DNA of 64,000 nucleotides, from positions 806,001 through 870,000 of the forward strand of contig NC_015416.1 of the NCBI RefSeq assembly GCF_000204415.1, in the 5' to 3' direction. The first letter of the stretch is position 1; every line of letters starts with the position of its first letter. Shown piece after piece: positions 3,049-20,293 of the stretch. The position numbers and the translations under genes were made by a program. The notes under the pieces were generated by a model. That model ran no database searches, was not told the origin of the DNA, and saw only the letters and a program-made list of their open reading frames with translations. This DNA is from Methanothrix soehngenii GP6 (GTDB lineage Archaea; Halobacteriota; Methanosarcinia; Methanotrichales; Methanotrichaceae).

Positions 3049-4230
3049 TCAATCCTCCGTCGTCCAGTCCATCCACTGGGCCGATCGCAGCTTTTCAGCC
3101 GTCTCCCGGTCAACTCCGTAGACATTCTTGTAGAAGTCCAGCAGCCACTGGGCCAGGTCTATGTCCTGGAATTGGTCCGGATAGGCAGCCTTGGCTATGA
3201 CCATCACGTCGATAGGATACTCCAACCGCTTGGCGCAGTTGCACGGAGACCAGGGGAGAGCGGTCACGTTCCTGTCCTTTACCGCCCTCATCTCCTGCAG
3301 GTTCTGGTAGTACGGAGCCTCGTAGAGCTCTCGCGGCGGATGATATCCAGATGCTGTGCAGAGCACGATGGCATCAGGATCCAGGGCCAAAAGCTGCTCG
3401 GCGTTAAGGGTCTTGAAGTAACCGGGGTCATGGTAGGCATTTTCAGCGTGAACCAGATTTTCAATGAAATAGGACTCTATAGTATCCAGGCCGAAGACCT
3501 GTCCTGCACCGCCCTCTTTCCGGGCAGAGGGAGACAGCCCCAGGATGAGTACTTTTGGCTTTTGCTCTTCTGAGACATCTTCAGTCCTCTGACTTACCAG
3601 ATCCACCTGGACCTCCAGGTATTCTGCCAGCTCATCTGCCTCCGCCTCCTTGCCAAAAACGCTGCCGATGATTCTGATTTCGTCGGATATGGTAGAAATA
3701 TCCTTGTTTTGCTCCTCATTGAAGTTGTGAGCGTATAGCACCACCAGAGGTATTCGCAGTGCTTCGAAGCTGGATATGGTCTTTTGGGCGGTCTCATCGT
3801 TGTACCTTAAGGAGCAGTCGCCGGCTCTCAGGATAACAACATCCGGTTCCAGCTCGGCGATGGCCTCGAAGTTGGGCGCCGCGTCGCCATTGGCCACAAT
3901 TGGAAGCTCTCTTAAATGGGGATAGAGGAGGCTGACCGGATTTGCTCCATCCTGGTAGATGATGGGCTCGCCTTTTACGCTCTCGTAGGTGTAATTCCAG
4001 ATTTTGGGAAGACAGGTGGAGCCAATGCCCACAATCTTATCCTCCTCTCCCAGGACCAACATCGTTCCTTCAATCAGGCCGTCGCTGATGGTCACTACAC
4101 GATCGATATCGGCCGGGACGTCTACTGCCACGCCACGGCTGTCTGTTACCTCTCTTGTTTCTTCCGCGGCCCCCTGTAAACAGAGGACAATCATCAAGAG
4201 GGCTAAAGCCCAAAACTTATGCTTGCTCAA
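3049..4230 (-). CDS. Metal-complex ABC transporter substrate-binding protein (FepB/BtuF-like)
   Basis: 393 residues with an N-terminal signal segment (hydrophobic residues 6-20, ending near AAEE), then the two lobes of the TroA/BtuF fold, with RGVAVDVPADIDRVV at the start and PDVVIL and DPDAIVL lobe strands. It should sit outside the membrane and hand a metal chelate to the FecCD permease encoded at 8679-9761. Four cysteines are shared with the paralog at 5136: C73 (STCLPK), C139 (RAGDC), and C330 and C332 (SPCNC). Cys-rich binding proteins of this kind are unusual outside the cell and could ligate metal. The start of the next gene abuts its stop. Substrate unknown. Confidence 0.85.
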   Translation of the reverse strand: MSKHKFWALALLMIVLCLQGAAEETREVTDSRGVAVDVPADIDRVVTISDGLIEGTMLVLGEEDKIVGIGSTCLPKIWNYTYESVKGEPIIYQDGANPVSLLYPHLRELPIVANGDAAPNFEAIAELEPDVVILRAGDCSLRYNDETAQKTISSFEALRIPLVVLYAHNFNEEQNKDISTISDEIRIIGSVFGKEAEADELAEYLEVQVDLVSQRTEDVSEEQKPKVLILGLSPSARKEGGAGQVFGLDTIESYFIENLVHAENAYHDPGYFKTLNAEQLLALDPDAIVLCTASGYHPPRELYEAPYYQNLQEMRAVKDRNVTALPWSPCNCAKRLEYPIDVMVIAKAAYPDQFQDIDLAQWLLDFYKNVYGVDRETAEKLRSAQWMDWTTED

Positions 4231-4257
4231 TTTATCACCACCAAAGATTGGATTCAG

Positions 4258-5097
4258 CTAATTCTTCTCCCACCAGAGCATCATATTGGTCGCACGATAT
4301 GGCAAAATCCACTGGCCATTGCGCTCTTCTAGAATCTGTGGAAGAACATCTTTTAGCACTGATCGTTGAGTCGAGGATAGAGCATTGAACTTTCCAGCGA
4401 AGTAATCTGCAGCCCCGTCCAGGGAGGTGAAGCGGTGGAGCATCTCAAAGCGGAAGACCCGGATATTGGGATAGATGCCCATCTGGTAAAGCACATTGAA
4501 GATTATGTCGCTTTTAGGCATGGTTTGATAGTCGCTCTTTCCAAATAGTGCAGCGCTGAGCTTTCTGTAATCTGCATCCCAGGAAGGCTCTCCCGCAAAC
4601 CACATCAGACAAATGTACCTCGACGAGGCCTCAATCATCTTTGAAACGGCCTCTCGAAGATCCAGAAATCCCAGGGAGAAAGATGCCACGACCAGCTCGT
4701 ATTTCATTAACAGATCAGTCGGGATTTCAACATCTTCCCACCGTTTCTGAATGCAATCGATGTTTTCGATCTTATGCCTCTTGAGATCATCGTTCAATAC
4801 CTCTAGCATCTGTGCTGACGGCTCTACCGCTGTAACCCTGGAAGCAATCCTGGAGAACGGTATAGCAAGCCTTCCAGTGCCTGCTCCGATGTCTAGAACT
4901 GCAAACGGAGAAGATAGAGCCATGATGTCCCTGAATGGCGCGATCGACTGCAGATCCTCCTCCTCAAGCATCCGGCCGTAATTGCTGGCCTCATGCTTAT
5001 TGCTCCAGTTGTCCACACAGTCCCTTCCTCTACCCGATTCTATGGACTTGGCCATTCTCTCTTTCCATACTTCATTCCAATCCAATGATGTAATCAT
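4258..5097 (-). CDS. Class I SAM-dependent methyltransferase
   Basis: 279 residues. Motif I is AVLDIGAGTGRLAIPF, followed by VTAVEPS, typical of the class I Rossmann fold. The ATG at 5097 is chosen because a good ribosome site (GGGAGAGG) lies just upstream; the longer frame starting at 5160 would overlap the upstream gene by 25 bases. It sits between two binding-protein genes in one operon-like run, so its substrate may be the ligand those proteins handle, or a precursor. No domain fixes the substrate. Confidence 0.82.
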   Translation of the reverse strand: MITSLDWNEVWKERMAKSIESGRGRDCVDNWSNKHEASNYGRMLEEEDLQSIAPFRDIMALSSPFAVLDIGAGTGRLAIPFSRIASRVTAVEPSAQMLEVLNDDLKRHKIENIDCIQKRWEDVEIPTDLLMKYELVVASFSLGFLDLREAVSKMIEASSRYICLMWFAGEPSWDADYRKLSAALFGKSDYQTMPKSDIIFNVLYQMGIYPNIRVFRFEMLHRFTSLDGAADYFAGKFNALSSTQRSVLKDVLPQILEERNGQWILPYRATNMMLWWEKN

Positions 5098-5135
5098 ACA
5101 GCCCTCTCCCAGAACATTTGGTTCGAGACCTGGCT

Positions 5136-6317
5136 CTACTCCGCCGTCCAGTCCATCCATTGAGCGGAGCGCAGACCTTCAGCCGTCTCACGATCTACGC
5201 CGTAAACATTCTGATAGAACTCCAGCAGCCACTCTCCGAGATCGATGTCCTTAAAGCGATCAGGGTATGCGGCCTTGGCCATCACCATCACATCGATTGG
5301 ATACTCCAGCCGCTTATCGCAGTTGCAGGGCGACCAGGGGAGTGCCATAACCCTTTTGTTCTTAATCGCATCCAGCTCCTGTAGGTTCTGATAATAGGGC
5401 GCTTCATAAATCTCTCTCGGGGGATGATAGCCAAAATCCGTGGGCAGCACAATTGCATCAGGATTAATGGCCAGCACACGCTCTGCATTCACTACCTCGG
5501 TCGAGACCTGCTCATGGAATGCGTTGCGAGCGTTTACGATATTTTCCAAGAAATATGATTCAATGGTGTTCAGTCCCCAAGCATCCCCAGCAGCACCCTT
5601 ACCTCTGGTTTGAGGCGATAGCCCAAACAAGAGCATGCTCGGCTTTTCGCTGTTCGGGATATCTCTTGTTCTCTCCCTTACTGTATCGACCTCGCTTTCA
5701 AGATATCTTGCAAGTTTATCTGCTTGGTCTTCCTTGCCGAATACCTGACCGACGATCCTAAGTTCTTCAGACAGCTTATCCAGGCTGGGCTTCTCGCAGG
5801 TGTTGGGACCATAGGTGACCACCAGGGGAATTCCAAGAGACTCTATGGAATCGATGGCCTTTTTCATGCCGTCTTTATCCTTCCAGAATGTGCAATCACC
5901 GGCCCTTACGATGATGACATCGGGTTTCAGGCCTGCAAGAACCTCGTAATTGGGGGCCACACCGCTTTTAGCAACCAGGGGCAGATCTTTGATCTTTGGA
6001 TTTAGATAATTGACAACATTCATCCCATCATGGTAGCTGAAGTTTCCGCCATTCACAGTAGGATAATCGATCTGCCAGACTTTAGGCAGACATTCGGACC
6101 CGAGGCCAACCAGCTTATCTTGCACACCCAAGACAGTCATCACTTCCTCCACCAATCCATCGCTGATGGTCACCACTCGATCGATCTCTGCAGGTACCTG
6201 AACTGATGCTCCCCTGCCATCTACAACAGTTCTCGTTTCCTCAGACGCTAATGCCGCTCCCAATATGAAACAAAAACATATTGAGGCGAGCTTACAAAGT
6301 TTCATATATTTTATCAT
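5136..6317 (-). CDS. Metal-complex ABC transporter substrate-binding protein (FepB/BtuF-like)
   Basis: 393 residues, closely related to the protein at 3049-4230. Signal peptide in the first 25 residues (ATG at 6317; a second ATG at 6305 is also possible). The same four cysteines appear: C76 (SECLPK), C142 (RAGDC), C331 and C333 (SPCNC). Shared stretches include LEYPIDVMVMAKAAYPD and EAPYYQNLQEL. Retention of these cysteines in tandem paralogs points to a structural or ligand-binding role. Predicted to feed the single FecCD/FecE transporter downstream; the cargo is not known. Confidence 0.85.
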   Translation of the reverse strand: MIKYMKLCKLASICFCFILGAALASEETRTVVDGRGASVQVPAEIDRVVTISDGLVEEVMTVLGVQDKLVGLGSECLPKVWQIDYPTVNGGNFSYHDGMNVVNYLNPKIKDLPLVAKSGVAPNYEVLAGLKPDVIIVRAGDCTFWKDKDGMKKAIDSIESLGIPLVVTYGPNTCEKPSLDKLSEELRIVGQVFGKEDQADKLARYLESEVDTVRERTRDIPNSEKPSMLLFGLSPQTRGKGAAGDAWGLNTIESYFLENIVNARNAFHEQVSTEVVNAERVLAINPDAIVLPTDFGYHPPREIYEAPYYQNLQELDAIKNKRVMALPWSPCNCDKRLEYPIDVMVMAKAAYPDRFKDIDLGEWLLEFYQNVYGVDRETAEGLRSAQWMDWTAE

Positions 6318-6495
6318 AGTGTCACCTGCGCTGTCTGCCGCTAGACTTCACATTCCTGAGCACCACATCCGTTGGAAGGACCGTCCTTGTTTTGCCGATA
6401 CGTCCTTTGCATTTCTGAAAAGTCGTATTCCTGGTCAGAGTCCCGCCACTCTGATGCCACAAAAAAATTTTTGCATTTCCACATTAAATTCACCA

Positions 6496-7827
6496 TCAAA
6501 ATCCCGTATCGTCAAGCCATTCCAGACACAAGCCCCTCTTTATCTCCTGAGCTGTCTCCTCATCTATGCCGTAAAGCTTCACGTGGTAGTCAATCAGCCA
6601 CTCTCCGACATTTACATCCTGGAACCTATCGGGATAGGTGAATTTGGCCTCGATCATCAGGCTGACGGGGAAATCCAGCCTCTCGGTCCTGCAGCCGATG
6701 AGTGGAAGTCCTGTGACCTTCCTTTCCTTGATGGCCCTGAGATCCTGCAGATCTTTGAAGCTCTCGTTGTTGTAAAGCTCATCAGGAGTGTGAACGCCCT
6801 GAGCTGTTGGCAGATATATGACATCAGGGTCAAGAGTCAATAGCTGCTCAGCAGACATAAGCTGTCGGCCCTCTCCTTTGAATTCATTCTTCGCATTGAC
6901 GATGTTTTCAATCAGAATAGGCTCAAGGATATTTTCCCCATCGACATAAGCGACACCACCCTTTCCCGCACTGTAACTGGATAGCTCCAGATAAAGGAAG
7001 CTCTTCTTCTCGTCTTCAGGAATATCTGCAGTCCGGCTCTTGATGAAATCCACCTGTTCTTTGAGAAGATTTATTATCTCTTCTGCTTTATCCTCTTTCT
7101 CAAATATTTTTCCGAGAAGCTCTACCTCAGTATAGACAGCTTCAGTCTCATCTCCATCGTATTTTGCGACTTGATTGAGGACGACAACCGGGACTCCCAG
7201 CGTTCTCATTGTCTCTATGCTCTTGAGATATGTCTCTCCGCTGTCCCTCCCCCACTGCCTGGTGCTTACAATGATGATATCCGGGTTAGTGCTGGCAATA
7301 GTTTCATAATTCTCCTTACCGATGGAGCCGCTGAACGGTATGGCTTCATCATCCAACATCTTTGGATACAGAATCCCTTCTATACACCACGGTGTGTTAT
7401 GGCTGTAGCTCTTACCGTTATAAGTAAAGCTTCTGGTGGTAGTTCCGCTTTTAGTGCAGCCCCCCTTCCCTACGATCTTCTCTGCATCTCCGAAGGCATA
7501 CATTGTTGTGGCAATAAGGCCGGTACTTATCTGAAATACCCTCTCGGGCGGCTTATAAATCGTGACCTCTGTGCCAGTGGCATCGATTATGATCCTGGGA
7601 TAATTCTCCTTGATATGGCGGATCTTGTCCAGCTCCTCTGTCGAAATTTCTCCTTTCTTGTAGGACTCTTCGGCTGCCTTCAACTCATCGTCTGAGACCT
7701 TATTGTCCCCGTCAGTGTCTCCTGGAACACTTGCGTGACTGGATACAGCGCCTTCAGATGCGCTTGCTACTGCAAGCAACAAGACCAGGCATGCTGCTCC
7801 TAGCATAAAACACAACTGTTTCGACAT
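6496..7827 (-). CDS. EF-hand-containing substrate-binding protein (FepB/BtuF-like)
   Basis: 443 residues. After a signal peptide (1-24) there is a 12-residue EF-hand loop at 37-48 (DTDGDNKVSDDE) with acidic or polar residues at positions 1, 3, 5, 9 and 12, then a helical linker and a TroA/BtuF-type binding domain from about residue 70. Cysteines occur in GKGGCTKSG, TPWCIEG and LIGCRTERL, only partly matching the paralogs. The gene is 9 bases upstream of the ATPase gene, so they were probably co-transcribed. The EF-hand suggests calcium-dependent stability or docking. Confidence 0.83.
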   Translation of the reverse strand: MSKQLCFMLGAACLVLLLAVASASEGAVSSHASVPGDTDGDNKVSDDELKAAEESYKKGEISTEELDKIRHIKENYPRIIIDATGTEVTIYKPPERVFQISTGLIATTMYAFGDAEKIVGKGGCTKSGTTTRSFTYNGKSYSHNTPWCIEGILYPKMLDDEAIPFSGSIGKENYETIASTNPDIIIVSTRQWGRDSGETYLKSIETMRTLGVPVVVLNQVAKYDGDETEAVYTEVELLGKIFEKEDKAEEIINLLKEQVDFIKSRTADIPEDEKKSFLYLELSSYSAGKGGVAYVDGENILEPILIENIVNAKNEFKGEGRQLMSAEQLLTLDPDVIYLPTAQGVHTPDELYNNESFKDLQDLRAIKERKVTGLPLIGCRTERLDFPVSLMIEAKFTYPDRFQDVNVGEWLIDYHVKLYGIDEETAQEIKRGLCLEWLDDTGF

Positions 7828-7836
7828 ATTAACACC

Positions 7837-8682
7837 TCAAACCTGCTGTCTGCTCATGCATTCTCTTGATTGGTCCCATCTCCCAAAGCCCTCCATCTCC
7901 TGTCGGAGCGCCACATCCCTTGGCAGCACCATCCTTATGCCGCCAATGCTCCTTACAGAGCATACATCCTGGTAGATCTCGTCCATTGTATCCTCAGTGA
8001 TGACGCTCTGTGATGTTCCCTCCTTCAGGATGCGGTTGTCCTTCATCACCACCACCTTGTCGCAGAACCAGCTAACATGGTTGGGGTCGTGGCTACAGGC
8101 CAGAATGGTCACTCCCCTCTCCGCAACCATTCGCATTATCCTCCAGATTCGGATCTGGTTACTGAAGTCCAGCGCAGATGTCGGCTCATCCAGGAACATG
8201 AGCGGCGTCTCCTGAGCGATGGCCCTGGCCATCAGTATCATCTGGCGCTGGCCTCCTGATAGCTGATTATAAGGATAGTCAGCCAGCTCTGTAAGACCCA
8301 GGAGATCCAGGGCCTCGGCCGCCTTCATCTTATCCTCCCGGCTGATGCCGAAGAATCCATTAAGCCGAGGCGTTCTGCCCATCAAGACCACCTCCCTGGC
8401 CAGATAGGGGAATGGAGGCTTGTGCTCCTGGGGCACATAGGCCACGATCTTGGCCATATCCTCGACCCTGAGGTCCTTGACGTCTTTACCGTCCATGCGG
8501 ATAGATCCGAGATGGGATTTCAAGAAGTTCAGGCAGCACTTGAAGAGCGTCGTCTTTCCGCAGCCATTGGGGCCAAATAGGCCGCATAGCTCGCCCTCGT
8601 TCACATCGAAGGACACGCCCTTGAGTATCGTGGTGTTTCCATAGTTGAAGTGAAGATCTTTGACCTCGAGCATTGGCGTCAT
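7837..8682 (-). CDS. ABC transporter ATP-binding protein, FecE/BtuD type
   Basis: 281 residues with all nucleotide-binding motifs: Walker A GPNGCGKTT (37-45), Q-loop Q85, signature LSGGQRQ (141-147), Walker B LMFLDEP (161-167) and switch histidine H198 in CSHDP. This is the cytoplasmic motor of an iron-chelate/cobalamin type importer. Its start overlaps the permease stop by four bases (ATGA), so translation is coupled. It is the only such ATPase in the window and is presumably shared by the several binding proteins. Confidence 0.93.
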   Translation of the reverse strand: MTPMLEVKDLHFNYGNTTILKGVSFDVNEGELCGLFGPNGCGKTTLFKCCLNFLKSHLGSIRMDGKDVKDLRVEDMAKIVAYVPQEHKPPFPYLAREVVLMGRTPRLNGFFGISREDKMKAAEALDLLGLTELADYPYNQLSGGQRQMILMARAIAQETPLMFLDEPTSALDFSNQIRIWRIMRMVAERGVTILACSHDPNHVSWFCDKVVVMKDNRILKEGTSQSVITEDTMDEIYQDVCSVRSIGGIRMVLPRDVALRQEMEGFGRWDQSRECMSRQQV

Positions 8683-9761
8683 CCCAGCATCGCCTTCCCT
8701 CTGGTCCTGAGAAGATAGAACAGGTACGGCGCACCGAGGATGGAGGTGATGATTCCTACAGGAATCTCAGCGCTGGTGAGCGTTCGTGCCATGGTATCGC
8801 AGACCAAAAGATAAGATCCTCCAAGCATTGCTGATGCAGGAATCACATATCGATGATCGGGTCCAAGCATCATGCGAGTGGCGTGAGGCATCATCAGGCC
8901 CACCCAGGCGATAATTCCCACGGTAGATACTGCAAGAGAGGTAACAAGAGTGGCCAGGGTTATCAGGACAAACTTGTATTTCTCCGGGTTGACTCCAAGG
9001 GCTCTGGCCTCGTCATCGCCCATGGAAAGGATGTTGAGCTTCCAGCCCAGGGCCCACATAATAAGGAAGCTGGGGATTATTATGGGCACGAGCAGATGGA
9101 CATCATTCCATGTGGCGTAATAGAAGCCGCCCATCAGCCAGAATACAATTTCCCGCAAAGCCGCATCTGTGGCTATGTACTTGAGAATGGAGACCATTGC
9201 AGAAAAGATGGAGCCAATGATCACACCTGCCAGGATCAATGTCACTATGGGCGTCTCCTTTCTGACCCTGGCCAGGAAGTAGGCCATGGCCACAGCCATA
9301 GACCCAAAGATAAATGCAGAGAGCTGAATGGACAGGAAGAAGCTGGAAAAGACTATGCCCATAGCAGCGCCAAAGGCAGCCCCAGAGGAGATGCCGAGGA
9401 TATAAGGCTCGACCAGTGGATTTCTGAAGCAACCCTGAAATACTGCGCCTGCCGTGGCCAGGGCTGTGCCTACAGCCACGGCCAGGAGGACTCGGGGGAT
9501 TCTCAGTTCCCAAACAATGGTGTTATGGAGCTTGGTGACACTGGATAGGTCTCCGAAAGGCGACAGATGAGCCAGTACGATTCCATAAACATCAACAATG
9601 GAGATGCTATAGGCTCCAAAGGTTATAGCCACCCCCACCGTGATAAGAAGCAATACGAAGAGAGCTGAGAGGATCAGGACCTTTCTCCCTTCTGAGTAAC
9701 CATATGCGATGTCAAAGCCCAACCGCTCCCACAAGCTTGTTTTTCTGATCATATCTGACAA
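8679..9761 (-). CDS. ABC transporter permease, FecCD family
   Basis: 360 residues with about nine to ten hydrophobic helices. FecCD hallmarks include RIPRVLLAVAVGTALATAGAVFQ, NPLVEPYILGISSGAAFGA and VGIIAWVGLMMPHATRM. It forms a homodimeric channel for siderophore, heme or corrinoid-type metal complexes. It is the first gene of the run permease-ATPase-EF-hand binding protein, all on the minus strand, with the promoter region between 9762 and 10137. Confidence 0.93.
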   Translation of the reverse strand: MSDMIRKTSLWERLGFDIAYGYSEGRKVLILSALFVLLLITVGVAITFGAYSISIVDVYGIVLAHLSPFGDLSSVTKLHNTIVWELRIPRVLLAVAVGTALATAGAVFQGCFRNPLVEPYILGISSGAAFGAAMGIVFSSFFLSIQLSAFIFGSMAVAMAYFLARVRKETPIVTLILAGVIIGSIFSAMVSILKYIATDAALREIVFWLMGGFYYATWNDVHLLVPIIIPSFLIMWALGWKLNILSMGDDEARALGVNPEKYKFVLITLATLVTSLAVSTVGIIAWVGLMMPHATRMMLGPDHRYVIPASAMLGGSYLLVCDTMARTLTSAEIPVGIITSILGAPYLFYLLRTRGKAMLG

Positions 9762-10137: not shown

Positions 10138-11736
10138 TCACTTCACGAAGGACTGTTTGTTCTGCGCTATTGGAGTTCCCATGGCGATCCCCCGCTTGGT
10201 GTAATACATGTCGATCAGACCATCGTGCGCCCAGCAGGAATCGGCATAATACAGGGGCAGCATCGGCAGATCCTGAGCATGCAACACTTGGACCTCATCG
10301 ACGAGTTCCTTGCGGCGATCGGGGTCCATCTCAGAAACCTCCCGGCTTAAGAGATCATTTAACTCCTGGTTCTCAAAGTAGCGGGCGCTGTTGAACGAAA
10401 ATCCTTCGCCTATAAGCCTGCTCAGGATTTCAGGATCTGCTCCCATTCCTCCGTGACTGTTTAAGGCCAGATCGAAGTCCCACTCAGAAACCAGGCTGTC
10501 CCGTGCCTTGGAGTCGAGGCTTCTAAGAGTCACCTTGAACCCAGTCTGCTCTAGCTGCTGCTTTATCATCTCTCCTGCTCGCTCGTCAGTGGCCGTGACC
10601 AGCATCTCCATTTCCAGGGGCTCACCGTCTTTGGTGAAGTACTGGCCGTCCTTGGTGTAGCCCAGCTCTTCCAGAAGCTCCCCGGCCCTGGCCGGATCAT
10701 AATCGTATGTCTCCACATTGGGATTGCATAAATCGTTATCATGGGCTAGGAGGCCGGGGCTGGCGATGATTCCGTAGCCGCGCAAGACCGTATCCACAAG
10801 AGCCTGTCTGTCGATGGCGTAGTACAGAGCCTGTCTGAACCTTGCGTCGGAGAATGGCTCCTTCCTGTGGTTGACCATGAGCTTGGTGATGCCGTCGTGT
10901 GAACCTCTCAGGACATCAAAGCCCGCCACCCCCAGATCCTCAGCCTTCTCGGGAGGGACTGTCGCTGCATCGACATCGCCTTTCTCCAGTGCCGCAGCCG
11001 CCATCTCATTGCTAACCTTTACGAACCTGAGTTGCTTGACCTTTGGAGCGCCCAGGTAGTAATCGTCATAGGCCTCGTAGAGGTATGTCCCCTGCGCCCT
11101 GTCGTAATCGACCAGCTTGAAGGGACCCATGCCGGTTAAGGCTTCATCCTCCAGGAACTCGGCAGGATTGGCCACATTGCTGTAGATGTGCTCAGGAAGT
11201 ATGGGGAGCGCTCCCGCAACCATCTCGATGAACGGGGCATAAGAGCCATTAAGATAGAGCTTGACGGTATAGTCGTCCAGAGCCTCGGCAGACTTCACAA
11301 GTTTTGGGCTTACCAGAGGGTAAGGATGTTCTTTGGTATAATCGATTGTGAAAACCACATCATTAGCGGTGAAGGGCTCTCCGTCCTGCCAGGTCGCGTT
11401 CTTTCTCAGGTCAAAGACGTAAGCGTCGTCCTCCAGCTGCCAGCTCTCCGCGAGAGCAGGAACGTAGCCGTTCTGGTCCTTCCATACGAGTGTGTCGAAG
11501 ATCAGGCTCATTCTGATATATCCAGGCCCTCTCGGGTAATGGCCGTAAGGAGAGGGAAATCCCCAGTCGCCGGTTGGGTCGGCAATTGTAAACATGTCTA
11601 TGGTCTCATCGGAAGCCGCTGCCATGTTGCAGAAAATGAGAAGCAACAGGCCCACGACCGCAAATCCGAGGGCAAGGGGAACTTTTGAGGACAAAGCTCC
11701 ACGAGTCCCTTTAATCGGCAGATTTTTCCTAATCAA
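10138..11736 (-). CDS. NikA/DppA-like substrate-binding protein (SBP_bac_5)
   Basis: 532 residues, the normal length for this family. A hydrophobic segment at about 20-42 is the signal or anchor. Family features include the opening YGHYPRGPGYI...FDTLVWKD, then WQDGEPFTANDVVFT and FRQALYYAIDRQALVD. Relatives bind dipeptides, Ni(His)2 or nickel metallophores. No Dpp/Nik permease or ATPase lies in the window, so the protein is either an orphan receptor or uses a transporter elsewhere. It is the last gene of the cassette PadR-FmdE-methyltransferase-NikA. Confidence 0.88.
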   Translation of the reverse strand: MIRKNLPIKGTRGALSSKVPLALGFAVVGLLLLIFCNMAAASDETIDMFTIADPTGDWGFPSPYGHYPRGPGYIRMSLIFDTLVWKDQNGYVPALAESWQLEDDAYVFDLRKNATWQDGEPFTANDVVFTIDYTKEHPYPLVSPKLVKSAEALDDYTVKLYLNGSYAPFIEMVAGALPILPEHIYSNVANPAEFLEDEALTGMGPFKLVDYDRAQGTYLYEAYDDYYLGAPKVKQLRFVKVSNEMAAAALEKGDVDAATVPPEKAEDLGVAGFDVLRGSHDGITKLMVNHRKEPFSDARFRQALYYAIDRQALVDTVLRGYGIIASPGLLAHDNDLCNPNVETYDYDPARAGELLEELGYTKDGQYFTKDGEPLEMEMLVTATDERAGEMIKQQLEQTGFKVTLRSLDSKARDSLVSEWDFDLALNSHGGMGADPEILSRLIGEGFSFNSARYFENQELNDLLSREVSEMDPDRRKELVDEVQVLHAQDLPMLPLYYADSCWAHDGLIDMYYTKRGIAMGTPIAQNKQSFVK

Positions 11737-11774
11737 AATTCCTCCTACAAATTTTGCTAACTAAAAAAATGCTA

Positions 11775-12956
11775 TTAGCTCTGCGTTTTATTCGGTGATT
11801 TGCCTTTATTTACCTCTTCTTGAAGGCGTTGCATCCATTCAGGGATGTGGACATCTTCCTGCGGGAAAAAGTCCTTGACGTAAGGCTTTATATCGATAAC
11901 AGGGCTTCCATCAACAGCGTCGAGGCCGAGGACCTCCAGGACGTTTCCCTTTCGTCCCTTCAGATGGACGACGGTCATAAGCACCGGATTGGGCCTTGCA
12001 GGGCTACAGGTGCAGAAAATGCCTTTTTCGGGAATATCTTCTCTGCCCATGGGGTGCACCCTCGTAAGCGACCGGCCCTCTTCGGGGACTTTATGCGCCC
12101 AATATAAAATTACAAGATGAGAATACTCCTCAATTCCGTCCAGGATGCCATCCAGACCTTCGTAGATGATGATATTCGAGATTTCTCCAGGCATCTCATG
12201 AATTTTAACTACGGCATCTTTGAGGTCGCCCTGCATTTTTAGTCCCTCTTCACCGGCAACAAGGAATGGTTTCTCTATCTTGCTTCTTATAATACCCACC
12301 GGATGCAGTACAATGCTGGCATCTTTTTGTTTCAACAAATCGGTCAACTCCTCGGGGATTTTTCTGAACTGAATCAAGTAGTTATAGCCTAGGTCGCACA
12401 AGCTCAACTTTCTAAAACCGTGTTTTGTTATCGTTCTTTCCAGCTCTTCAGCTGATATGCGCATATCAATCGGCGGTCCGCATGGCTGGTCCTCTTTCTT
12501 GCATTCGATAATTGCCAGCCGCCCCTCAGGTTTTAAAACACGCCCTATTTCGCTAAACAGGGTGCTCTCTACATCGGCCAGATTGAGGGAGTGAAGCACG
12601 GTAGATATGAAACAAATGTCTACACAACTATCCTTGACCGGCAGAGGACCGGAAATATCACAGACCTCAGCCTTAATATTCTTTAATCCTTCTGAAACGA
12701 CCTTATCCCTTAAATCAACTATCGCATCCTGGTTTTTATCCAGAGCGTACGCTCTACCGGTATCGCCTATAAGCCTCGAGGCTCGAATGGAATAATCTCC
12801 CGGCCCGCTGCCCAAATCTAGAAAGCAGTCTCCTCTCTGCAGATCAAGCCCGCCGAAAACCAGATCCGGGTCCTGCATCCAGAAGCTGCTTTTTCCCTTT
12901 TTATGTCTGTTCGGCCTATCGCATTGACGCCCGCAAGTCGTATCTGTTGCATCCAT
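11775..12956 (-). CDS. Fusion of a class I methyltransferase with a TrmO/TsaA-like domain
   Basis: 393 residues. The first 200 are a class I SAM methyltransferase (CFLDLGSGPGDYSIRASRLIG as motif I, VLKPEGRLAIIE later), closely similar to the stand-alone enzyme at 18982-19584. From about residue 215 there is a TrmO/TsaA (UPF0066) domain, recognised by HPVGIIRS, CTCSPARPNPVLMTVVHL and LGLDAVDGSPVIDIKPY. TrmO uses SAM to methylate t6A37 in tRNA, but TrmO-like domains fused or placed by metal-transport genes may act on something else. Two different SAM-binding folds in one chain is unusual. It lies 38 bases upstream of the NikA-like gene. Confidence 0.88.
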   Translation of the reverse strand: MDATDTTCGRQCDRPNRHKKGKSSFWMQDPDLVFGGLDLQRGDCFLDLGSGPGDYSIRASRLIGDTGRAYALDKNQDAIVDLRDKVVSEGLKNIKAEVCDISGPLPVKDSCVDICFISTVLHSLNLADVESTLFSEIGRVLKPEGRLAIIECKKEDQPCGPPIDMRISAEELERTITKHGFRKLSLCDLGYNYLIQFRKIPEELTDLLKQKDASIVLHPVGIIRSKIEKPFLVAGEEGLKMQGDLKDAVVKIHEMPGEISNIIIYEGLDGILDGIEEYSHLVILYWAHKVPEEGRSLTRVHPMGREDIPEKGIFCTCSPARPNPVLMTVVHLKGRKGNVLEVLGLDAVDGSPVIDIKPYVKDFFPQEDVHIPEWMQRLQEEVNKGKSPNKTQS

Positions 12957-12980
12957 TTCTCTCTCACCAGGATATTTGGG

Positions 12981-13775
12981 TCAGCTCTTGGTTGAAGCAG
13001 ATGGTCTTTCAGATTCTTTGGCAACAATGCCTCTTCCCTCGACCTGACGATAAGCTTCTCCTGCACACATGAAACAGAGACCGCCCACGGTTTTAGTGGC
13101 CATGATCATCTCGCCGCAGTTGGAGCAGACGATGCTCTCCGTAATTGGAGCGTATTCAGGCAGCAGAGGCCGAAAGGTCTCGACTGCAAATAGCTCATCG
13201 AATGGTAGCTGGATGACGCCGAAGGCCGCCTGCCTCCCCGCTTTTCGAAATGCTGCTTTTTCCCTTGCGCCGCCCTCCCGATTCTTGATGACCTTTTCCA
13301 TCAGAGGGTAGAACTCCGGGGAGGCCTTGGCCACGCTAGAGCTGAAATCGGGCTGAACCCTTATGCGGACTCCGGTCTCCTTTCCTCGAATGGCGAAGGT
13401 AACTGCCAGCCTTCCCAGATCGCGGTAGACCAGGGCGTTGTTCCCCAAGGTGCAGCCGGATACGGCCTGCACTCCGTCGGCGAAGCATGCGTTTGTTTCT
13501 ACAACGGCCATGAGGTCCTCTAATCCGTCGGAAGAGATCGAATCCAGGCCCAGAAGATTCAGGCCATGCACCGAAGCCATGACGCCAAGAGCGCTTCCCG
13601 GACAGAAGTGCCCGTGGATCTCAGCAGTCTTCACGAGGCAGCGGGCCATATCTTTCTCACGTATGGCCTGAAGAAATTCTCCTCTAGGGTTTTGCTTAAA
13701 GTCTTCAATTCGTCTATCTTCTGCAAATATCTGTTCTGTATTCATTTCGCTCAATCCAACCATCTCCGAATCCAA
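12981..13775 (-). CDS. FmdE-like metal-binding protein
   Basis: About 264 residues (TTG at 13775; ATGs at 13763 and 13745 are alternatives, and no ribosome site clearly decides). It has the FmdE core with IHGHFCPGSALG (H54, H56, C58) and NACFADGVQAVSGCTLGNN, and a C-terminal zinc ribbon CSNC...CFMC (about C217, C220, C234, C237). FmdE proteins co-purify with formylmethanofuran dehydrogenase, but many paralogs sit with transport genes and their role is unclear. This one lies between PadR and the methyltransferase-TrmO fusion, implying a job tied to that cassette rather than methanogenesis. Confidence 0.87.
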   Translation of the reverse strand: MDSEMVGLSEMNTEQIFAEDRRIEDFKQNPRGEFLQAIREKDMARCLVKTAEIHGHFCPGSALGVMASVHGLNLLGLDSISSDGLEDLMAVVETNACFADGVQAVSGCTLGNNALVYRDLGRLAVTFAIRGKETGVRIRVQPDFSSSVAKASPEFYPLMEKVIKNREGGAREKAAFRKAGRQAAFGVIQLPFDELFAVETFRPLLPEYAPITESIVCSNCGEMIMATKTVGGLCFMCAGEAYRQVEGRGIVAKESERPSASTKS

Positions 13776-13785
13776 CTGTCTCTGA

Positions 13786-14280
13786 TTATATCTTCTTCAG
13801 CTCATCTATGGCTCTTAGAATTACAGACCGGACCCTCTCTCGATCCGTGTCGGTTTCCAGATGATCCGCAACCTGATGAATCAGCGGAGCGAGCAGCTCT
13901 ATCTGTTCTTTTACGGGAACTCTCATTCCCCTGTGAAGGTCATGCATGTCTTTCATGAGATCCTGCACATCGGCATCTTCGAACGTTTCGCTGGCCAGAG
14001 CTATAGATTGATGGAGCTTTTTGATGAAATCATGTTTAACCTCATTTATCTGAGCAACATGCTCTTTGCCGATCTCAGTCAAGCTGTAGTAGGTCTTGCC
14101 GTCTTCGGCTCTTCCTGAGATCCAGCCTTCTCGCTCCATCTTTTTCAATAGCGGATAGATCGATCCCGTGCTGGGTTTCTTTCCGCTAATCGCTTCCACT
14201 TTCTTTATTATATCGTAGCCGGATGCTTCACCATCTTTCATGATGTGAAGCATAATCATCTTCAAGATACCAGTTGCCAT
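13786..14280 (-). CDS. PadR family transcriptional regulator
   Basis: 164 residues from ATG 14280, chosen because the paralog at 20132 begins with the same MATG(I/L)LKM. The N-terminal winged helix is typical of PadR (SGYDIIKKVEAISG, STGSIYPLLKKMEREGW, YYSLTEIGKEH), followed by a long helical dimerisation domain. It is the first gene of the FmdE/methyltransferase/NikA cassette, and a palindrome lies in its leader, so autoregulation and control of the cassette are likely. The ligand is unknown. Confidence 0.9.
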   Translation of the reverse strand: MATGILKMIMLHIMKDGEASGYDIIKKVEAISGKKPSTGSIYPLLKKMEREGWISGRAEDGKTYYSLTEIGKEHVAQINEVKHDFIKKLHQSIALASETFEDADVQDLMKDMHDLHRGMRVPVKEQIELLAPLIHQVADHLETDTDRERVRSVILRAIDELKKI

Positions 14281-14307
14281 TATATCAGTATCGCTATATC
14301 GATGCAT

Positions 14308-14659
14308 ATATCGCTGTTGGTTATACTTCCATTCGATCTATTCACTCAATCAGCTTCCATGTCTATGTATCGATTTAGACATATCAATCCAGATATATAT
14401 ACTTTTTGAGCCTGTGTGCATATAAAGTATGAATAGAATTCTATAATTTCATAAAAAATTAGAAGAGATGAAAATGATTGCCATCTCCACCAATCGGTTC
14501 TTGATATACCTCAGACACTTGCTGCCAGGATGTCTATAGCAAGATCGATCAAGTCGCAGGATATCGATACTATTTTGCAGTAATTTTTGTCATACTACCC
14601 GAATTTTTGAAAAAATGAACTGACTGCAGCTTATCGGGCCGCAGCAACAGTATCCAATT
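14308..14659. other. Intergenic region between the PadR gene and the broken NikA-like gene
   Basis: Apart from the promoter and operator near 14359-14407 this region is AT-rich and contains no gene that I can support. A second TATA-like stretch occurs near 14418. The rest is the 3' flank of the disrupted NikA-like gene. Confidence 0.5.
14359..14407 (-). promoter_or_regulatory. PadR promoter with candidate operator
   Basis: On the minus strand an AAAAAGTATATATATC box (14393-14407) looks like a BRE plus TATA element. About 25 bases downstream, where transcription should start, is a perfect 7-bp inverted repeat ATGTCTA-N10-TAGACAT at 14359-14382. A bound dimer there would block initiation. The start codon is about 80 bases further on. 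Binding by PadR is inference from position and symmetry. Confidence 0.55.
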
Positions 14660-15117
14660 TTAAACAAAGGCCATCTTGTTCAATGCCGTTGGCGTTCCCA
14701 TGGCCACTCCTCCGTAAGTATAGTAGAAGCTCACCCTGTCATCAGAGGCCCAAAAGGAGTCGATATAGAACAAAGGCAGAGATGGCAGGTCGCATGCGAT
14801 GATCTCCTGAGCCTGACTGACCAGCTCTTTGCGCCTGGCAGGGTCCATCTCTGAAACCTGCTCATTTAGCAGATCAACAAGCTGCACATCTTCAGCGTAG
14901 CGTGAGCTGTAGAGCCCTGTTCCAATGATGATACGATTTAGGACTGAAGGATCAGCACCCATGCCGCCGTGATAGTTTATTGCCAGGTCGAACTTCCAGT
15001 CGTCAACCATGCTATCCTTGGTCTTCAAATCCATGCTGCGCAGGTTGACCGTGATGCCGCCAGACTCAAGCTGATGCTCGATCAGCTCTCCGAGGCGCTC
15101 TTCAGTGGGAGCTACTA

Positions 15118-16436
15118 GTACAGCCGGGCTGAGATGAACCTAACGATAAGGTTTTATATATAATCATTGACAGATACTCTACAACAGGGGAGTATCAATG
15201 CCGGGTCCGAAACCACCAGCAATCAACTTGAACGACGTCGAGCGCCAAGGGTTGGAATTGCTTGTTCGTCGGTATACTACAGGGCAGCAAAAAGTTATCC
15301 GAGCACGGATTGTTTTGCTGGCTGCGATGGGTAAGAACAATCGTGAAATCGCTAATGAATTAGAGGTTTCCTTGGACACTGCTCGATTATGGCGACGACG
15401 ATGGCTGGACTTGCAGCCGATTTCTTTGGATGATCTGAGTATTGAAGAACGCTTGGATGACCTGCCAAGACCAGGAGTACCACCTCGTTTAACTGCAAAC
15501 CAGATTTGTCAGATCCAACAGCTGGCTTGTGAGAAACCTGAAGAATCGGGACGTCCAATTAGCCAATGGACAAGCCGTGAGATTGCAGCAGAAGTAATAA
15601 AGCGGGGCATTGTAGATACGATTTCAGCTCGTCATTCTGCCAGGATTCTAAAAAAAATGACCTCCAACCGCACTTGATTCGTTACTGGCTAACACCTGCT
15701 CCGGACGATCAATTCGACGAAAAGGTAGACGATATCAATTCACTGTATCAACAAGCCATTAATTTGGCTCAAAAAGGTGAAGTCGTAATGAGCATCGATG
15801 AAATGACTGGGGTACAAGCTCTCGAACGCAAACACCCTGGATTGCCAATGGCACCAGGAAAAGTGGAACGCAGGGAGTTTGAATACATCAGGCATGGAAC
15901 TCAATCATTCATCGTGAGCTTTGCGGTAGCCAAGGGAAAGGTTGACACCATTTCTTGCGGCGATACGCGCAATGAAGATGACTTCGTATCCCATATCAAG
16001 GAGGTGGTAGAAAGATCCTTATCCACATCCCGCTGGCACTTTGTCGCCGACAATCTCAATATCCATAAATCAGAGTCTCTTGTGAGGTATGTGGCAGATG
16101 TATCCGACTTGGACATCGACTTAGGAATCAAAGGCAGAGATGGTATTCTGAAGTCAATCGAAACTCGCGAATCATTCTTGGCCGATCCATCTCACTCAAT
16201 TGTCTTTCACTACACGCCGATACACGCTTCTTGGATGAACCAGGTCGAAATATGGTTTAGCATTTTGGTCAGGAAGCTGCTCAGGCGGGCCAGCTTTGCT
16301 TCTATCAATGATCTGAACGCCAAGGTTCTGGCGTTTGTCGAGTACTTCAACAAGACAATGGCAAAGCCATTCAAATGGACATATCGAGGGAAGGCACTTA
16401 CTATCTAAAATTGGGCTTATTTAAGCCCGGCTGTAC
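15118..16436 (+). mobile_element. IS630 family insertion sequence, complete
   Basis: 1319 bases bounded by a 13-bp inverted repeat starting GTACAGCCGGGCT. The insertion is in CTAG with the central TA duplicated (15116-15117 and 16437-16438), the classic IS630 target choice. A promoter-like TTTTATATATAATC precedes the transposase gene. The element is opposite in orientation to the gene it interrupts. Confidence 0.92.
15198..16408 (+). CDS. IS630 transposase, made by -1 frameshifting
   Basis: Two overlapping frames. The first (15198-15677) has the helix-turn-helix DNA-binding part; the second (15674-16408) has the DDE catalytic part: [15 protein letters not shown] and NQVEIWF. The run of eight A at 15650-15657 makes an A AAA AAA slippery heptamer. 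Reading it in the -1 frame gives [16 protein letters not shown], the continuous sequence expected for an IS630 enzyme. The full product would be about 400 residues. The ATG near 15674 is therefore probably not a true start. Confidence 0.88.
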
Positions 16437-17593
16437 TAGCAGCTCTATCTCCAGGCGTTCTCCATCCTTAGAGAAGTACTGACCATCTTTGGAATATCCC
16501 ATTTCCTTCAGCAGTTCCTCTGCCTTTGCCGGGTCAAAGGAATACTGCTCCTGGTCGGGATTATACCATGGATGGTCTGAAGGCAGGATCCCGGGACAGC
16601 CTGCACAGCCAAAGCCCCGAAGGAAGATATCCACCAGAGCCTGGCGATCGATGGCGTAGTAGATGGCCTTCCTGAACCTGACATCAGAGAATGGTTCCTT
16701 TTTATGGTTTATGGCCATGATCATGGTCGTGTCATGTGACTCTTTGATATCAAATCCTTCTTTTTCCAGTGGTTCCGTTGTTTCAGCTGGCACGCTGGCA
16801 GCGTCGATGTCACCCTTCTTTAAGGATGCAGACGCCATCTCATTGCTGACCTTTACGAACTTGAGCTGCTTGACCCTTGGAGATCCCTGATAGTAATCCT
16901 CATTGGCCTTGTAGAAGTAGGTCCCTTGTGTCTGGTCATAGTCAACCAACCGGAAGGGACCAGTGCCTGTAAGTGCTTTTTCATCCTTGTAGTCATCGGG
17001 ATCGCTCATATTCCTGTAGATGTGCAGAGGCAGGATTGGCTGAGCACCTGCCACCTGGTCCAGGAAGGGCGCATAGCTCTTTGTGAGGACGATCTTAACG
17101 GTGTTCTCGTCTATGGCTTCCGCCTTGTCAATGATGCTTGAGTCCACCAGCGGATAGGGATGATCTTTAGTATACTGGAAGGTAAAGGCCACATCATCTG
17201 CAGTGAAGGGCTCGCCATCGTTCCAAGTAACGCCTTTTCTCAGGTGGAAGAGATAGGCGTTCTCATCCGGCAGATATTTCCATGTCTCTGCCAGAGCGGG
17301 CACAAAGCCGTTCTGATCCTTCCATATCAATGTGTCGAAGATGAAGCTCATCATGATATACCCTCCGCCATGCGGGTAATGGCCGTAGGGCGAGGGGAAT
17401 CCCTGATCGCCGCTTAGTGCGGCAACCGTAAGCGTATCCACTTTTTCATCGGCGGCCAGGACGTTGCTGCTGAGAATGAAGACCAGCAGGCCCATGACAG
17501 CAAAGCCGAGGGTAAGCGGGACTCTCATGAACGGTACCGCCCTATGCACACCACAGGGTCTAATTTTTTTCGTATTATCTCCTCCTGTCAATT

Positions 17594-18985
17594 TTATGCC
17601 TCCATTTGAATAATCTTTTGATCAATCACTCTTTTGACTGTTTTTTCTCTATACATTATAATTCGATTAAGCGTATAAATTGCAACAATGCTTGAGACCA
17701 AATACGATACAGGGAGTGCGAGAAATACGCCCCAAAGGCCAATCAGGAGAGAGCCAACATAAGCCATTGGGATGTACAAAATAAATGCTTGAGTAAGTGT
17801 CAAAATTGCTGCGTGTATTGGCTTTTTTAATACGCTCATTGCAGATGTTGAAATTGCCACAATCCCATACAGGCCATATCCTATTGGAACAATTGACAGA
17901 TAAAGGCCTGTAACTGAAATAACCTCAGGATCATCGCTGAATATCGATCCAACTGTGCCACCCAAAAATGCAAACACTATGAACATAATCAAGCCCCATA
18001 TCAGGGAAAATCGGTAACTGAATTTCGTCCCAGATTTGATGCGATCGAACTTACCTGCGCCCCAATTCTGACCGATAAAAGGACCTACCACGCTTGCGAG
18101 AGCCATAATAACTATAAGGGCAAACGAATCCATTCGAGTCGCAATGCCAAAACCAGCAACAGCGTCCGAGCCATAAGTAGCCACTATTCTGGTAATAAAT
18201 CCGGCAGCAAGGGGGGTGATTATCATTGCTCCTGCATTGGGCAAACCTATGTAGAGAATTTGAATCCAGGAAACAAGGATGGAATTTAACGAGGGAATAT
18301 CAAACGAAAGCATCCTCTCGTTATAATACAGAAAATACAATGACATAATCAGGGTTAGGGCCCGTGCGATTACTGTGGCCATTGCAGCGCCCGCAATTTC
18401 AAGACGTGGAACCGGGCCGATTCCAAAAATCAAAATTGGGTCTAAAATAATATTTGCGCCAGCTGCAAACATCATGATGAATGCGGGTGTTTTTGTATCT
18501 CCGGCTGCTCTAATTGCGTTGGTTCCAACCATTGGGACTACAATGAAAACCAAACCGAGATACCATATTACCATATACTCTCTGATATACGTTATGATTT
18601 CTAAGGAAGCTCCTAAGAAATGGAATAAAGGGTTGATGGTAAGAAGACCAATTGGCACAATGAAGCCCACGAGTAACAGCGATAGAACTATGCTATCCGT
18701 CGTCAGTCTTTTTACTTTATTGCGATTTCCCTCACCGATTGAATGTGAAATCACAGCAGAGGCTCCAATGGCAACTGCGTGGGCCAAATTGTTTACGAAA
18801 AGGACAACAGGGAAGGTGAAGCTCATCGCCGCTAGCTGGCCGGTTCCCAGCTGGCCGACAAAAAAGGTATCTGTCAAATTAAAAATAATCATGCTAATAG
18901 TTCCAAAAATCATGGGGATTGTCAGCATGATCAATGTTTTTGGTATGGGCCCTTCAATCAACCGAGAATTCCTGTCCGTCATCAT
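17594..18985 (-). CDS. MATE family efflux transporter
   Basis: 463 residues with about twelve hydrophobic helices. MATE features include PIPKTLIMLTIPMIFGTIS, LTDTFFVGQLGTGQLAAMSF and GFGIATRMDSFALIV in the second half. MATE proteins export organic compounds in exchange for Na+ or H+. The start overlaps the methyltransferase stop by four bases (ATGA), so the two are translationally coupled. In this cassette it takes the place of FmdE and could export a methylated compound. No sign of damage. Confidence 0.92.
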   Translation of the reverse strand: MMTDRNSRLIEGPIPKTLIMLTIPMIFGTISMIIFNLTDTFFVGQLGTGQLAAMSFTFPVVLFVNNLAHAVAIGASAVISHSIGEGNRNKVKRLTTDSIVLSLLLVGFIVPIGLLTINPLFHFLGASLEIITYIREYMVIWYLGLVFIVVPMVGTNAIRAAGDTKTPAFIMMFAAGANIILDPILIFGIGPVPRLEIAGAAMATVIARALTLIMSLYFLYYNERMLSFDIPSLNSILVSWIQILYIGLPNAGAMIITPLAAGFITRIVATYGSDAVAGFGIATRMDSFALIVIMALASVVGPFIGQNWGAGKFDRIKSGTKFSYRFSLIWGLIMFIVFAFLGGTVGSIFSDDPEVISVTGLYLSIVPIGYGLYGIVAISTSAMSVLKKPIHAAILTLTQAFILYIPMAYVGSLLIGLWGVFLALPVSYLVSSIVAIYTLNRIIMYREKTVKRVIDQKIIQMEA

Positions 18986-19584
18986 TTTTTAATAAATTGG
19001 ATCATATAATTGAACCCAAGATCCGCTAGGCTTGTCTTTTCAAAGCCGTAACTATTGATACATCCTTCGAGCTCTTCTGGTGACTGACGCATATGCACCG
19101 GCGGACCGAAAGGCTGGATTTCTCTCTTGCAGTTGATGATTACAATTCGCCCACCGGGCTTTAAGACGCGGCGAATCTCGTTGAACAAAACGCCTTCTAC
19201 ATCGGCCAGTTTGAATATGTGAAGCACTGTCGCCAGGAAACAAACATCGATGCTGCCATCTTCGATGGGCAACGGGGCGGTGATATCTGCGGCGATTGCC
19301 CTTAAATTATTCAACCTAAGAGAACCGGCTTTTTCAGTCAGATCATCTATGCCGTCTTGCCACCTATCCAGCGCAAATACCTTGCCTGAATTCCCGACGA
19401 TCTCTGAAGCTCGAATGGCATAATCTCCAGATCCACATCCCATGTCGAGGAAGCAGTCGCCCTCTCTGAGATTAAGCTCACTGAAGACCTGCTCGGGATC
19501 GTGTATCCAGAAGCTACTTCGGCATCGTCTGTGTCCGTTTTGTCCATAGCGATTTTCACCATCATAATGATTCAGATCAGTCAT
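18982..19584 (-). CDS. Class I SAM-dependent methyltransferase
   Basis: 200 residues, similar throughout to the first half of the fusion at 11775-12956: both share RCRSSFWIHDPEQVF-type openings, CFLDMGCGSGDYAIRASEIVG as motif I, and the ending FNYMIQF. It has no TrmO-like domain. Second gene of the cassette PadR-methyltransferase-MATE-NikA. Substrate not determinable; the context suggests a small molecule rather than RNA. Confidence 0.87.
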   Translation of the reverse strand: MTDLNHYDGENRYGQNGHRRCRSSFWIHDPEQVFSELNLREGDCFLDMGCGSGDYAIRASEIVGNSGKVFALDRWQDGIDDLTEKAGSLRLNNLRAIAADITAPLPIEDGSIDVCFLATVLHIFKLADVEGVLFNEIRRVLKPGGRIVIINCKREIQPFGPPVHMRQSPEELEGCINSYGFEKTSLADLGFNYMIQFIKK

Positions 19585-19634
19585 AGTTGCCCTCTACACC
19601 TGAAGCCAAAACTCAGTTTTCTTTTGAAATACTT

Positions 19635-20132
19635 CTAATCAAGTTTTTTTAGCTCATCCCTGGCCTGCAAGAGGATGGATTCTATTTTTCCTCGCCCAAC
19701 ACCTCTACGCGAAAGCTCAGCGACTTCACGAATTAATGACTCAAGGAGTTTCAACTGTTCTATGTCCTGAGAATGAACACCTCTATGAGTGTCATGCATC
19801 TCATTCATGAGGGCCTGGATATCGCTATCTTCAAAGGTTTCGTTGGCCAAAGCTATTGATTGATGAATCTTCTTGATAAACTCGTGTTTTGCCTCTTTTA
19901 TCTGAGCTATGTGCTCTTTGCCGGTCTCAGTCAGGCTGTAGTAGGTCTTGCCATCTTCGAACCTGCCTAAGACCCAGCCTTCCCTCTCCATCTTTTTTAG
20001 TAATGGGTAGATCGATCCTGTGCTGGGTTTCTCTCCCGTGATTGCTTCCACTTTCTTTATTAAATCATAGCCGGATACTTCACCCCCTTTTATGATATGA
20101 AGCATCAACATCTTCAAGAGACCAGTTGCCAT
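19635..20132 (-). CDS. PadR family transcriptional regulator (second copy)
   Basis: 165 residues, paralog of 13786-14280, with nearly the same recognition region (KPSTGSIYPLLKKMEREGWVLG, YYSLTETGKEHIAQI). This suggests both proteins bind related operators. It heads the methyltransferase-MATE-NikA cassette. The TATA box is so close to the ATG that the mRNA is probably nearly leaderless. Confidence 0.9.
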   Translation of the reverse strand: MATGLLKMLMLHIIKGGEVSGYDLIKKVEAITGEKPSTGSIYPLLKKMEREGWVLGRFEDGKTYYSLTETGKEHIAQIKEAKHEFIKKIHQSIALANETFEDSDIQALMNEMHDTHRGVHSQDIEQLKLLESLIREVAELSRRGVGRGKIESILLQARDELKKLD

Positions 20133-20174: not shown

Positions 20175-20293
20175 GGTTAACACTTATCCGAGTTTTGGTA
20201 TTGATTAGTATGAATATATTACAACTACTTCATATAAAAGCTATCAACATCTCGCTCATAATTTTAAAAAAAATAGATTAGAATCACGCCCTC

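Follow-up and report, generated by a model that had tools for sequence, protein, structure and literature searches.

The stretch analysed here, hereafter the window, covers 64,000 nt of the 3,008,626-base chromosome of Methanothrix (Methanosaeta) soehngenii/concilii GP6, an acetate-using methanogen whose genome has one further small contig. The window encodes a FecCD-type ATP-binding cassette (ABC) importer with several related extracytoplasmic receptors, two of which, named P2 and P3, carry four cysteines predicted to line the ligand cleft. We tentatively propose that this quartet binds a soft metal or a metal-sulfur species, most likely nickel. The proposal is based on the gene content of the locus, on the conservation of the quartet, on its placement in cleft loops of a confident model, on covariation across the two lobes, and on the company of a methyltransferase and a CooC-like ATPase. 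If it is correct, P2 and P3 would be rare extracytoplasmic receptors that hold their cargo by cysteine ligands.

The receptors and their cysteine quartet

The importer genes, the five receptor genes (P1 to P5) and the quartet codons are located as follows:

8679-9761, minus strand: FecCD/BtuC-type permease (Pfam FecCD, 9e-93)
7837-8682, minus strand: ABC ATPase partner (Pfam ABC_tran, 1.4e-31)
6496-7827, minus strand: P1 receptor, 443 aa, Peripla_BP_2, without the quartet (cysteines C124, C148, C379 and C434)
5136-6317, minus strand: P2 receptor, 393 aa, quartet C76/C142/C331/C333
6090-6092, minus strand: P2 Cys76 codon, cleft loop GSEC of the N-terminal lobe, after strand 69-72 of the model
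5892-5894, minus strand: P2 Cys142 codon, cleft loop AGDC of the N-terminal lobe, after strand 134-139 of the model
5319-5327, minus strand: P2 Cys331-Asn-Cys333 codons, cleft loop SPCNC of the C-terminal lobe, after strand 323-325 of the model
4258-5160, minus strand: class I S-adenosylmethionine (SAM) methyltransferase, conserved operon partner
3049-4230, minus strand: P3 receptor, 393 aa, quartet C73/C139/C330/C332
4012-4014, minus strand: P3 Cys73 codon
3814-3816, minus strand: P3 Cys139 codon
3235-3243, minus strand: P3 Cys330-Asn-Cys332 codons
2055-3048, minus strand: P4 receptor pseudogene of the C/W/Y/W (aromatic) subclade
21362-22429, minus strand: P5 related receptor, 5' end lost, without signal peptide and without the quartet

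P1 to P5 form one clade in the window and are mutually closest relatives within the genome, and the permease at 8679-9761 is the sole FecCD permease of the window, in agreement with the original prediction of five related receptor genes with one permease and one ATPase. An adjacent FecCD permease and ABC ATPase, the hallmark of a FecCD-type importer, are thus present; they adjoin P1 to P4, not P5. The further assumption that several receptors feed one channel is a reasonable one, since the whole genome has 29 Peripla_BP_2 matches against 6 intact FecCD permeases, and since relatives commonly carry two to four arrayed receptor genes for each permease.

P1, P2 and P3 score 61-70 bits against Peripla_BP_2 (PF01497), whose curated cut-off is 27.5, as class III substrate-binding proteins do. 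P2 and P3 are 60% identical, and their cysteines are found at the positions predicted; they had been described as tandem genes, but the methyltransferase gene stands between them. P1 has C124 and C379 at some loops similar to the quartet loops, the quartet itself being absent. P4 contains internal stops and a frameshift, and its 3' end is cut off beside an insertion sequence (IS; 331-1959) that encodes a DDE_Tnp_1 transposase and lies directly past the truncation. The CC of this broken gene had been taken as a match to the first quartet site. However, the nearest intact relative of P4, from a Methanotrichaceae metagenome-assembled genome (L084:11341-12537), carries C/W/Y/W at the four quartet sites and falls in a separate, fully supported clade of the tree with an aromatic version of the site. 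The CC of P4 is therefore no leftover of a decayed quartet, since its intact counterpart belongs to that aromatic clade. P5 is missing its N-terminal portion, signal peptide included, and is probably decayed as well.

To describe the family, 393 genomes of the phylum were searched and relatives were found in 33 genomes of 20 genera; Desulfobacula, Desulfocicer and Desulfoluna joined the list when species genomes were scanned. Hosts of the full quartet (CCCC) are Methanothrix, Methanosarcinales, Methanomicrobiales and Desulfobacteria. The quartet is present in 50 of the 83 members (at least 43% identity) and in 26 of the 45 that remain when the set is thinned at 75% identity, and we regard it as a conserved family trait and not as chance. 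In a maximum-likelihood tree built without the quartet columns, CCCC is scattered across the whole tree and the site type changes 19 times. Most departures retain one cross-lobe pair (SCSC, SCMC, SCWC, TCYC, GCSC, CGCS), and the members from Methanosarcina have partial quartets. The quartet is lost completely in the aromatic clade (CSYW, CWYW, WWYW) and in the GSRS/GSRA and NG-Y types. The coordinated replacement of these cysteines by aromatic or small side chains (CWYW, WWYW, GSRS) marks the four positions as a specificity site. Further cysteines occur at columns 173 (44/83) and 292 (35/83), both in cleft-facing loops.

Covariation was measured as mutual information with average product correction, independently of any structure model. 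Among 62,481 column pairs, C76-C331 ranks 4 and C142-C333 ranks 8, both pairs spanning the cleft; the remaining pairs among the four quartet columns covary weakly. Across 8 phylogenetically independent contrasts, C331 changes together with C76 in 4.9 and against it in none. These data show proximity and joint function for each cross-lobe pair; pairwise covariation does not separate metal coordination from disulfides.

The structure of P2 was predicted with AlphaFold2 from a 103-sequence alignment (predicted local distance difference test, pLDDT, 94; predicted template-modelling score, pTM, 0.90); secondary structure and confidence were used, and cysteine placement was read at the level of loops. 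The model has two alpha/beta lobes joined by one long connecting helix (196-217), the architecture of class III receptors, in which the loops that follow the three strands listed above line the cleft. C76 and C142 are on the N-terminal lobe, C331 and C333 on the C-terminal lobe; their three loops border the cleft between the lobes. Both the secondary structure of the model and the covariation thus place cysteines of both lobes in cleft loops. The refutation test given with the original prediction thus does not overturn it: in the model, the four cysteines lie in cleft-facing loops and are not scattered over the surface.

The Foldseek matches are all class III receptors, the best being 4ovk, MolA (3psa), 2etv, YiuA and Helicobacter pylori CeuE; they include CeuE with Ni-His and MolA, a molybdate receptor. 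No matched structure is described as having such cysteines, and the literature searched yielded nothing direct on a cysteine-ligated class III receptor or on the window locus. BtuF, FepB, FhuD, MolA and CeuE, with their FecCD/BtuC permeases, share the Pfam family, the two-lobe fold with its connecting helix and the permease/ATPase partners. Unlike these other class III receptors, the quartet family has four to six cleft-loop cysteines with cross-lobe covariation, a further beta hairpin (80-99) beside the first cysteine loop and a methyltransferase as constant operon partner. CeuE (PDB 4inp/4ls3) has the same fold (TM-score to target 0.79) and the same transporter type, and its entries are nickel complexes; however, they describe Ni or Ni-His complexes with no comparable thiolate site, and identity is 16-17% in the aligned part. 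MolA (HI1472), the molybdate/tungstate receptor of a BtuCD-type importer and the second best fold match, is an example of a receptor of this class that accepts a small inorganic ligand, but that ligand is an oxyanion and no cysteine quartet is seen at the aligned loops.

Gene company and nickel context

Neighbours were clustered over 49 fetched loci, some places having been fetched twice. On this count the permease is present in 44 loci, the ATPase in 45 and the class I SAM methyltransferase in 37. The usual order is permease-ATPase-methyltransferase-receptor, and the genes often overlap. Sequence searches gave no assignment for the methyltransferase. Its model (pLDDT 87) is closest by TM-score to TmtA/GtmA, fungal dithiol S-methyltransferases, at 14% identity, a likeness that gives only a hint of its function.

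Another neighbour in the relatives is a CooC homolog, whose best PDB match is CooC1, a component of carbon monoxide dehydrogenase (CODH) maturation; the alignment includes the CxC of CooC. This CooC subfamily occurs in 15 genomes, and in 9 of them a copy is found at most 8 kb from the receptor locus, against 0.22 copies expected. The homolog resembles the CooC/AcsF nickel-insertion ATPases and retains their CxC; it is a genomic partner, not a transporter component. NikA-like SBP_bac_5 receptors are also frequent neighbours. A second locus of the host genome (L030; G000:C1:419-425 kb) encodes a distant receptor (G000:C1:419011-420174), 22% identical, with nine cysteines, among them C89, C91, C102, C105, C141, C317 and C322, several of which are in the same three loops. 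It is accompanied by FecCD, ATPase, CooC and SBP_bac_5 genes, by a stomatin/SPFH-like gene and by a methyltransferase that belongs to the family of the operon partner.

NikR signals have been described as GTATGA-N16-TCATAC in E. coli (PMC7055735) and as GTGTTAC-N13/14-GTAACAC in delta-proteobacteria (PMC545781). Scans for the E. coli half-sites were equivocal. A later dyad scan, guided by the delta-proteobacterial signal, found 28-bp dyads GTANTAC-N14-GTANTAC at L068, L073, L076, L078, L090, L095, L102, L104 and their kin, where they precede permease, receptor, NikA-like or methyltransferase genes by 6-116 bp. Of the 14 sites with the 14-base spacing that reach 14 bits, 12 are just upstream of genes, most of these having trained the matrix; with an 11-base spacing, 7 of 9 sites are upstream of genes. 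In the most telling held-out test, the dyad precedes CbiM in three Methanosarcina genomes (18.4-19.2 bits), the three being orthologous. The presence of nikR alone is uninformative, because nikR occurs in all 30 genomes tested. We take the dyad as moderate support for nickel in the relatives and as none for the window. The importer resembles NikABCDE/NikMNQO under NikR in that NikA-like SBP_bac_5 genes adjoin the locus and a dyad of NikR geometry occurs in relatives, but those systems use other receptor and permease families.

The CbiM-type nickel/cobalt transporters are found in all these genomes, and NiCoT in 5 of the 30. Another nickel route therefore exists, and the idea of a nickel importer by default, in genomes with no other nickel transporter, was discarded.

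Proposed mechanism and competing explanations

In the proposed mechanism, a FecCD-type (class III) ABC importer would be served by several interchangeable extracytoplasmic receptors. In P2 and P3, the four cysteines would meet from both lobes in the closed cleft and coordinate the cargo by their thiolates. This cargo would be either a soft metal as such or a small species of the metal-sulfur or metal-thiolate kind, with nickel, or a nickel-sulfur species, the likeliest. The closed receptor would deliver it to the single permease/ATPase. The SAM methyltransferase may then work intracellularly on the ligand side, for instance by S-methylating a thiol ligand so that the metal is freed, and in the relatives the CooC-like ATPase could carry nickel onward to enzymes of the CODH/acetyl-CoA synthase type. 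A soft metal, most likely nickel, is favoured because of the CooC-like, NikA-like and NikR-dyad context in the relatives.

Several points weigh against this proposal. No CooC gene is present at the window locus, and the dyad is absent from the window, from Desulfobacteria and from most CbiM control regions. In addition, the dyad was found after the fact, in training and test genomes that are related. The receptor importer is not the sole nickel route of these genomes. Finally, the cysteine placement is at the level of loops, and strictly pairwise covariation is a signature of disulfides too.

Indeed, the main rival is that C76-C331 and C142-C333 form two cross-lobe disulfides, or a redox gate of the cleft, with no metal binding. 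It fits the pairwise covariation equally well, and the original prediction of thiol ligands for a soft metal is thereby only partly sustained: cleft placement, cross-lobe covariation and the CooC, NikA and NikR-dyad context speak for it, but the pairs suit two disulfides just as well. The protein is extracytoplasmic, either pair is missing as a whole in some members that keep the other (SCxC types, CGCS), and a gene for a thioredoxin-like/SfLAP membrane protein adjoins the operon in three relatives. However, two interlobe bonds across the cleft would block the hinge motion that a receptor needs, the lost pairs often become W/W, S/W or Y/W and not random residues, extra optional cleft cysteines occur, and the gene company is one of metal handling. 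We therefore consider disulfides a serious but unlikely explanation. That the cargo is an iron-sulfur species (aqueous FeS cluster or FeS-thiolate) and not nickel is also rather unlikely in our view. Four to six cleft thiolates would fit a cluster and the hosts are methanogens and sulfate reducers; moreover, according to PMC10846266 no route is known by which methanogens internalise FeS(aq), and in Methanosarcina barkeri the level of a siderophore/cobalamin-type binding protein increases with FeS2 or sulfide. Nevertheless, this M. barkeri receptor could not be matched to the quartet family, Methanosarcina quartets are partial, and the CooC-like and NikA-like neighbours together with the NikR-like dyad indicate nickel.

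The methyltransferase leads to another possibility, in which the cargo is a chelate or cofactor with a thiol group, or else an organic thiol or disulfide; the cysteines would contact this cargo, the enzyme would modify it, and metal binding by the protein would be incidental. This would explain why the methyltransferase is the most constant partner (37/49 loci) and agrees with its closeness to dithiol S-methyltransferases and with aromatic-box paralogs, which suggest organic ligands; but a fold likeness at 14% identity is weak evidence and the CooC-like company suits a metal better, and we find this explanation improbable. An ordinary ferric-siderophore or corrinoid importer, with cysteines irrelevant to binding, seems highly improbable. 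The Pfam and NCBIfam matches are indeed siderophore, heme and B12 receptors and permeases, but all scores are far under the equivalog cut-offs: for BtuFCD, 286.6 against 461 for the permease, 217 against 537 for the ATPase and 29.5 against 234 for BtuF, the window receptors being likewise far below the cut-offs of FepB, FhuD and IsdE. Furthermore, the four cysteines are kept over genera and phyla and covary. Its Pfam match, fold and partner genes place the quartet receptor among class III receptors and in a FecCD importer; by the equivalog scores it is not a BtuF, FepB, FhuD or IsdE equivalog. Salvage of F430 or corrinoids was ruled out, as Desulfobacteria carry the system and the corrinoid equivalog scores fail.

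A wider form of the nickel or metal-sulfur proposal may be considered, although we hold it to be unlikely as a whole: a family of extracytoplasmic receptors of methanogens and sulfate reducers would directly capture nickel-sulfide or iron-sulfide species, whose metal would exchange its ligands for four to six thiolates of the cleft; import would follow, and methylation would drive release. Methanogens have a high need for nickel and iron, yet sulfide removes both metals from solution in their habitat. If true, such a scheme would be a dedicated uptake route for metals locked up by sulfide. Capture of a soft metal by the quartet receptors, as in the main proposal, could already explain how these microbes get metals from sulfidic mud. 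The thiolate-cleft receptor occurs in relatives that are genetically tractable or culturable.

Other features of the locus

On the minus strand, the gene order is PadR, FmdE, methyltransferase-TrmO fusion, NikA-like SBP_bac_5 receptor, FecCD permease and ATPase, followed by P1, P2, methyltransferase, P3, broken P4 and the IS. The other features are:

10138-11736, minus strand: SBP_bac_5 (NikA/CntA-like) receptor, lies upstream of the permease and often adjoins the locus in relatives
11775-12956, minus strand: methyltransferase-TrmO_N fusion
12981-13775, minus strand: FmdE-family protein
13786-14307, minus strand: PadR-family regulator
20294-21307, minus strand: Methyltransf_2-type methyltransferase, of the same family as that heading the operon in L090
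13786-14307 and 19635-20132: two PadR-family genes preceded by inverted repeats

These inverted repeats (GTATGAATA...TTCATA) are similar to each other, lie at 14427-14454 and 20208-20235, just upstream of both PadR-family genes, and are likely PadR operators. SBP_bac_5, methyltransferase and PadR genes are present in both 10138-14307 and 16401-20132, and these two halves look like an old duplication. In the stretch 14660-17591, an SBP_bac_5 (NikA-like) gene is cut by an IS (open reading frames with helix-turn-helix and DDE_3 domains, 15198-16408) into an N-terminal part (16401-17591) and a C-terminal remnant (14660-15034). The receptor domain of P1 is preceded by an N-terminal stretch DTDGDNKVSDDE / DTDGDNKVSDDELKAAEESY, which is EF-hand-like/dockerin-like.

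At L065, L066 and L110, a thioredoxin-like + SfLAP membrane protein adjoins the receptor operon and is a possible thiol-redox partner. FmdE-family proteins are found beside the locus both in the window (12981-13775) and at L089 (10944), where a NikR-like dyad overlaps the FmdE start; FmdE may be linked to nickel.

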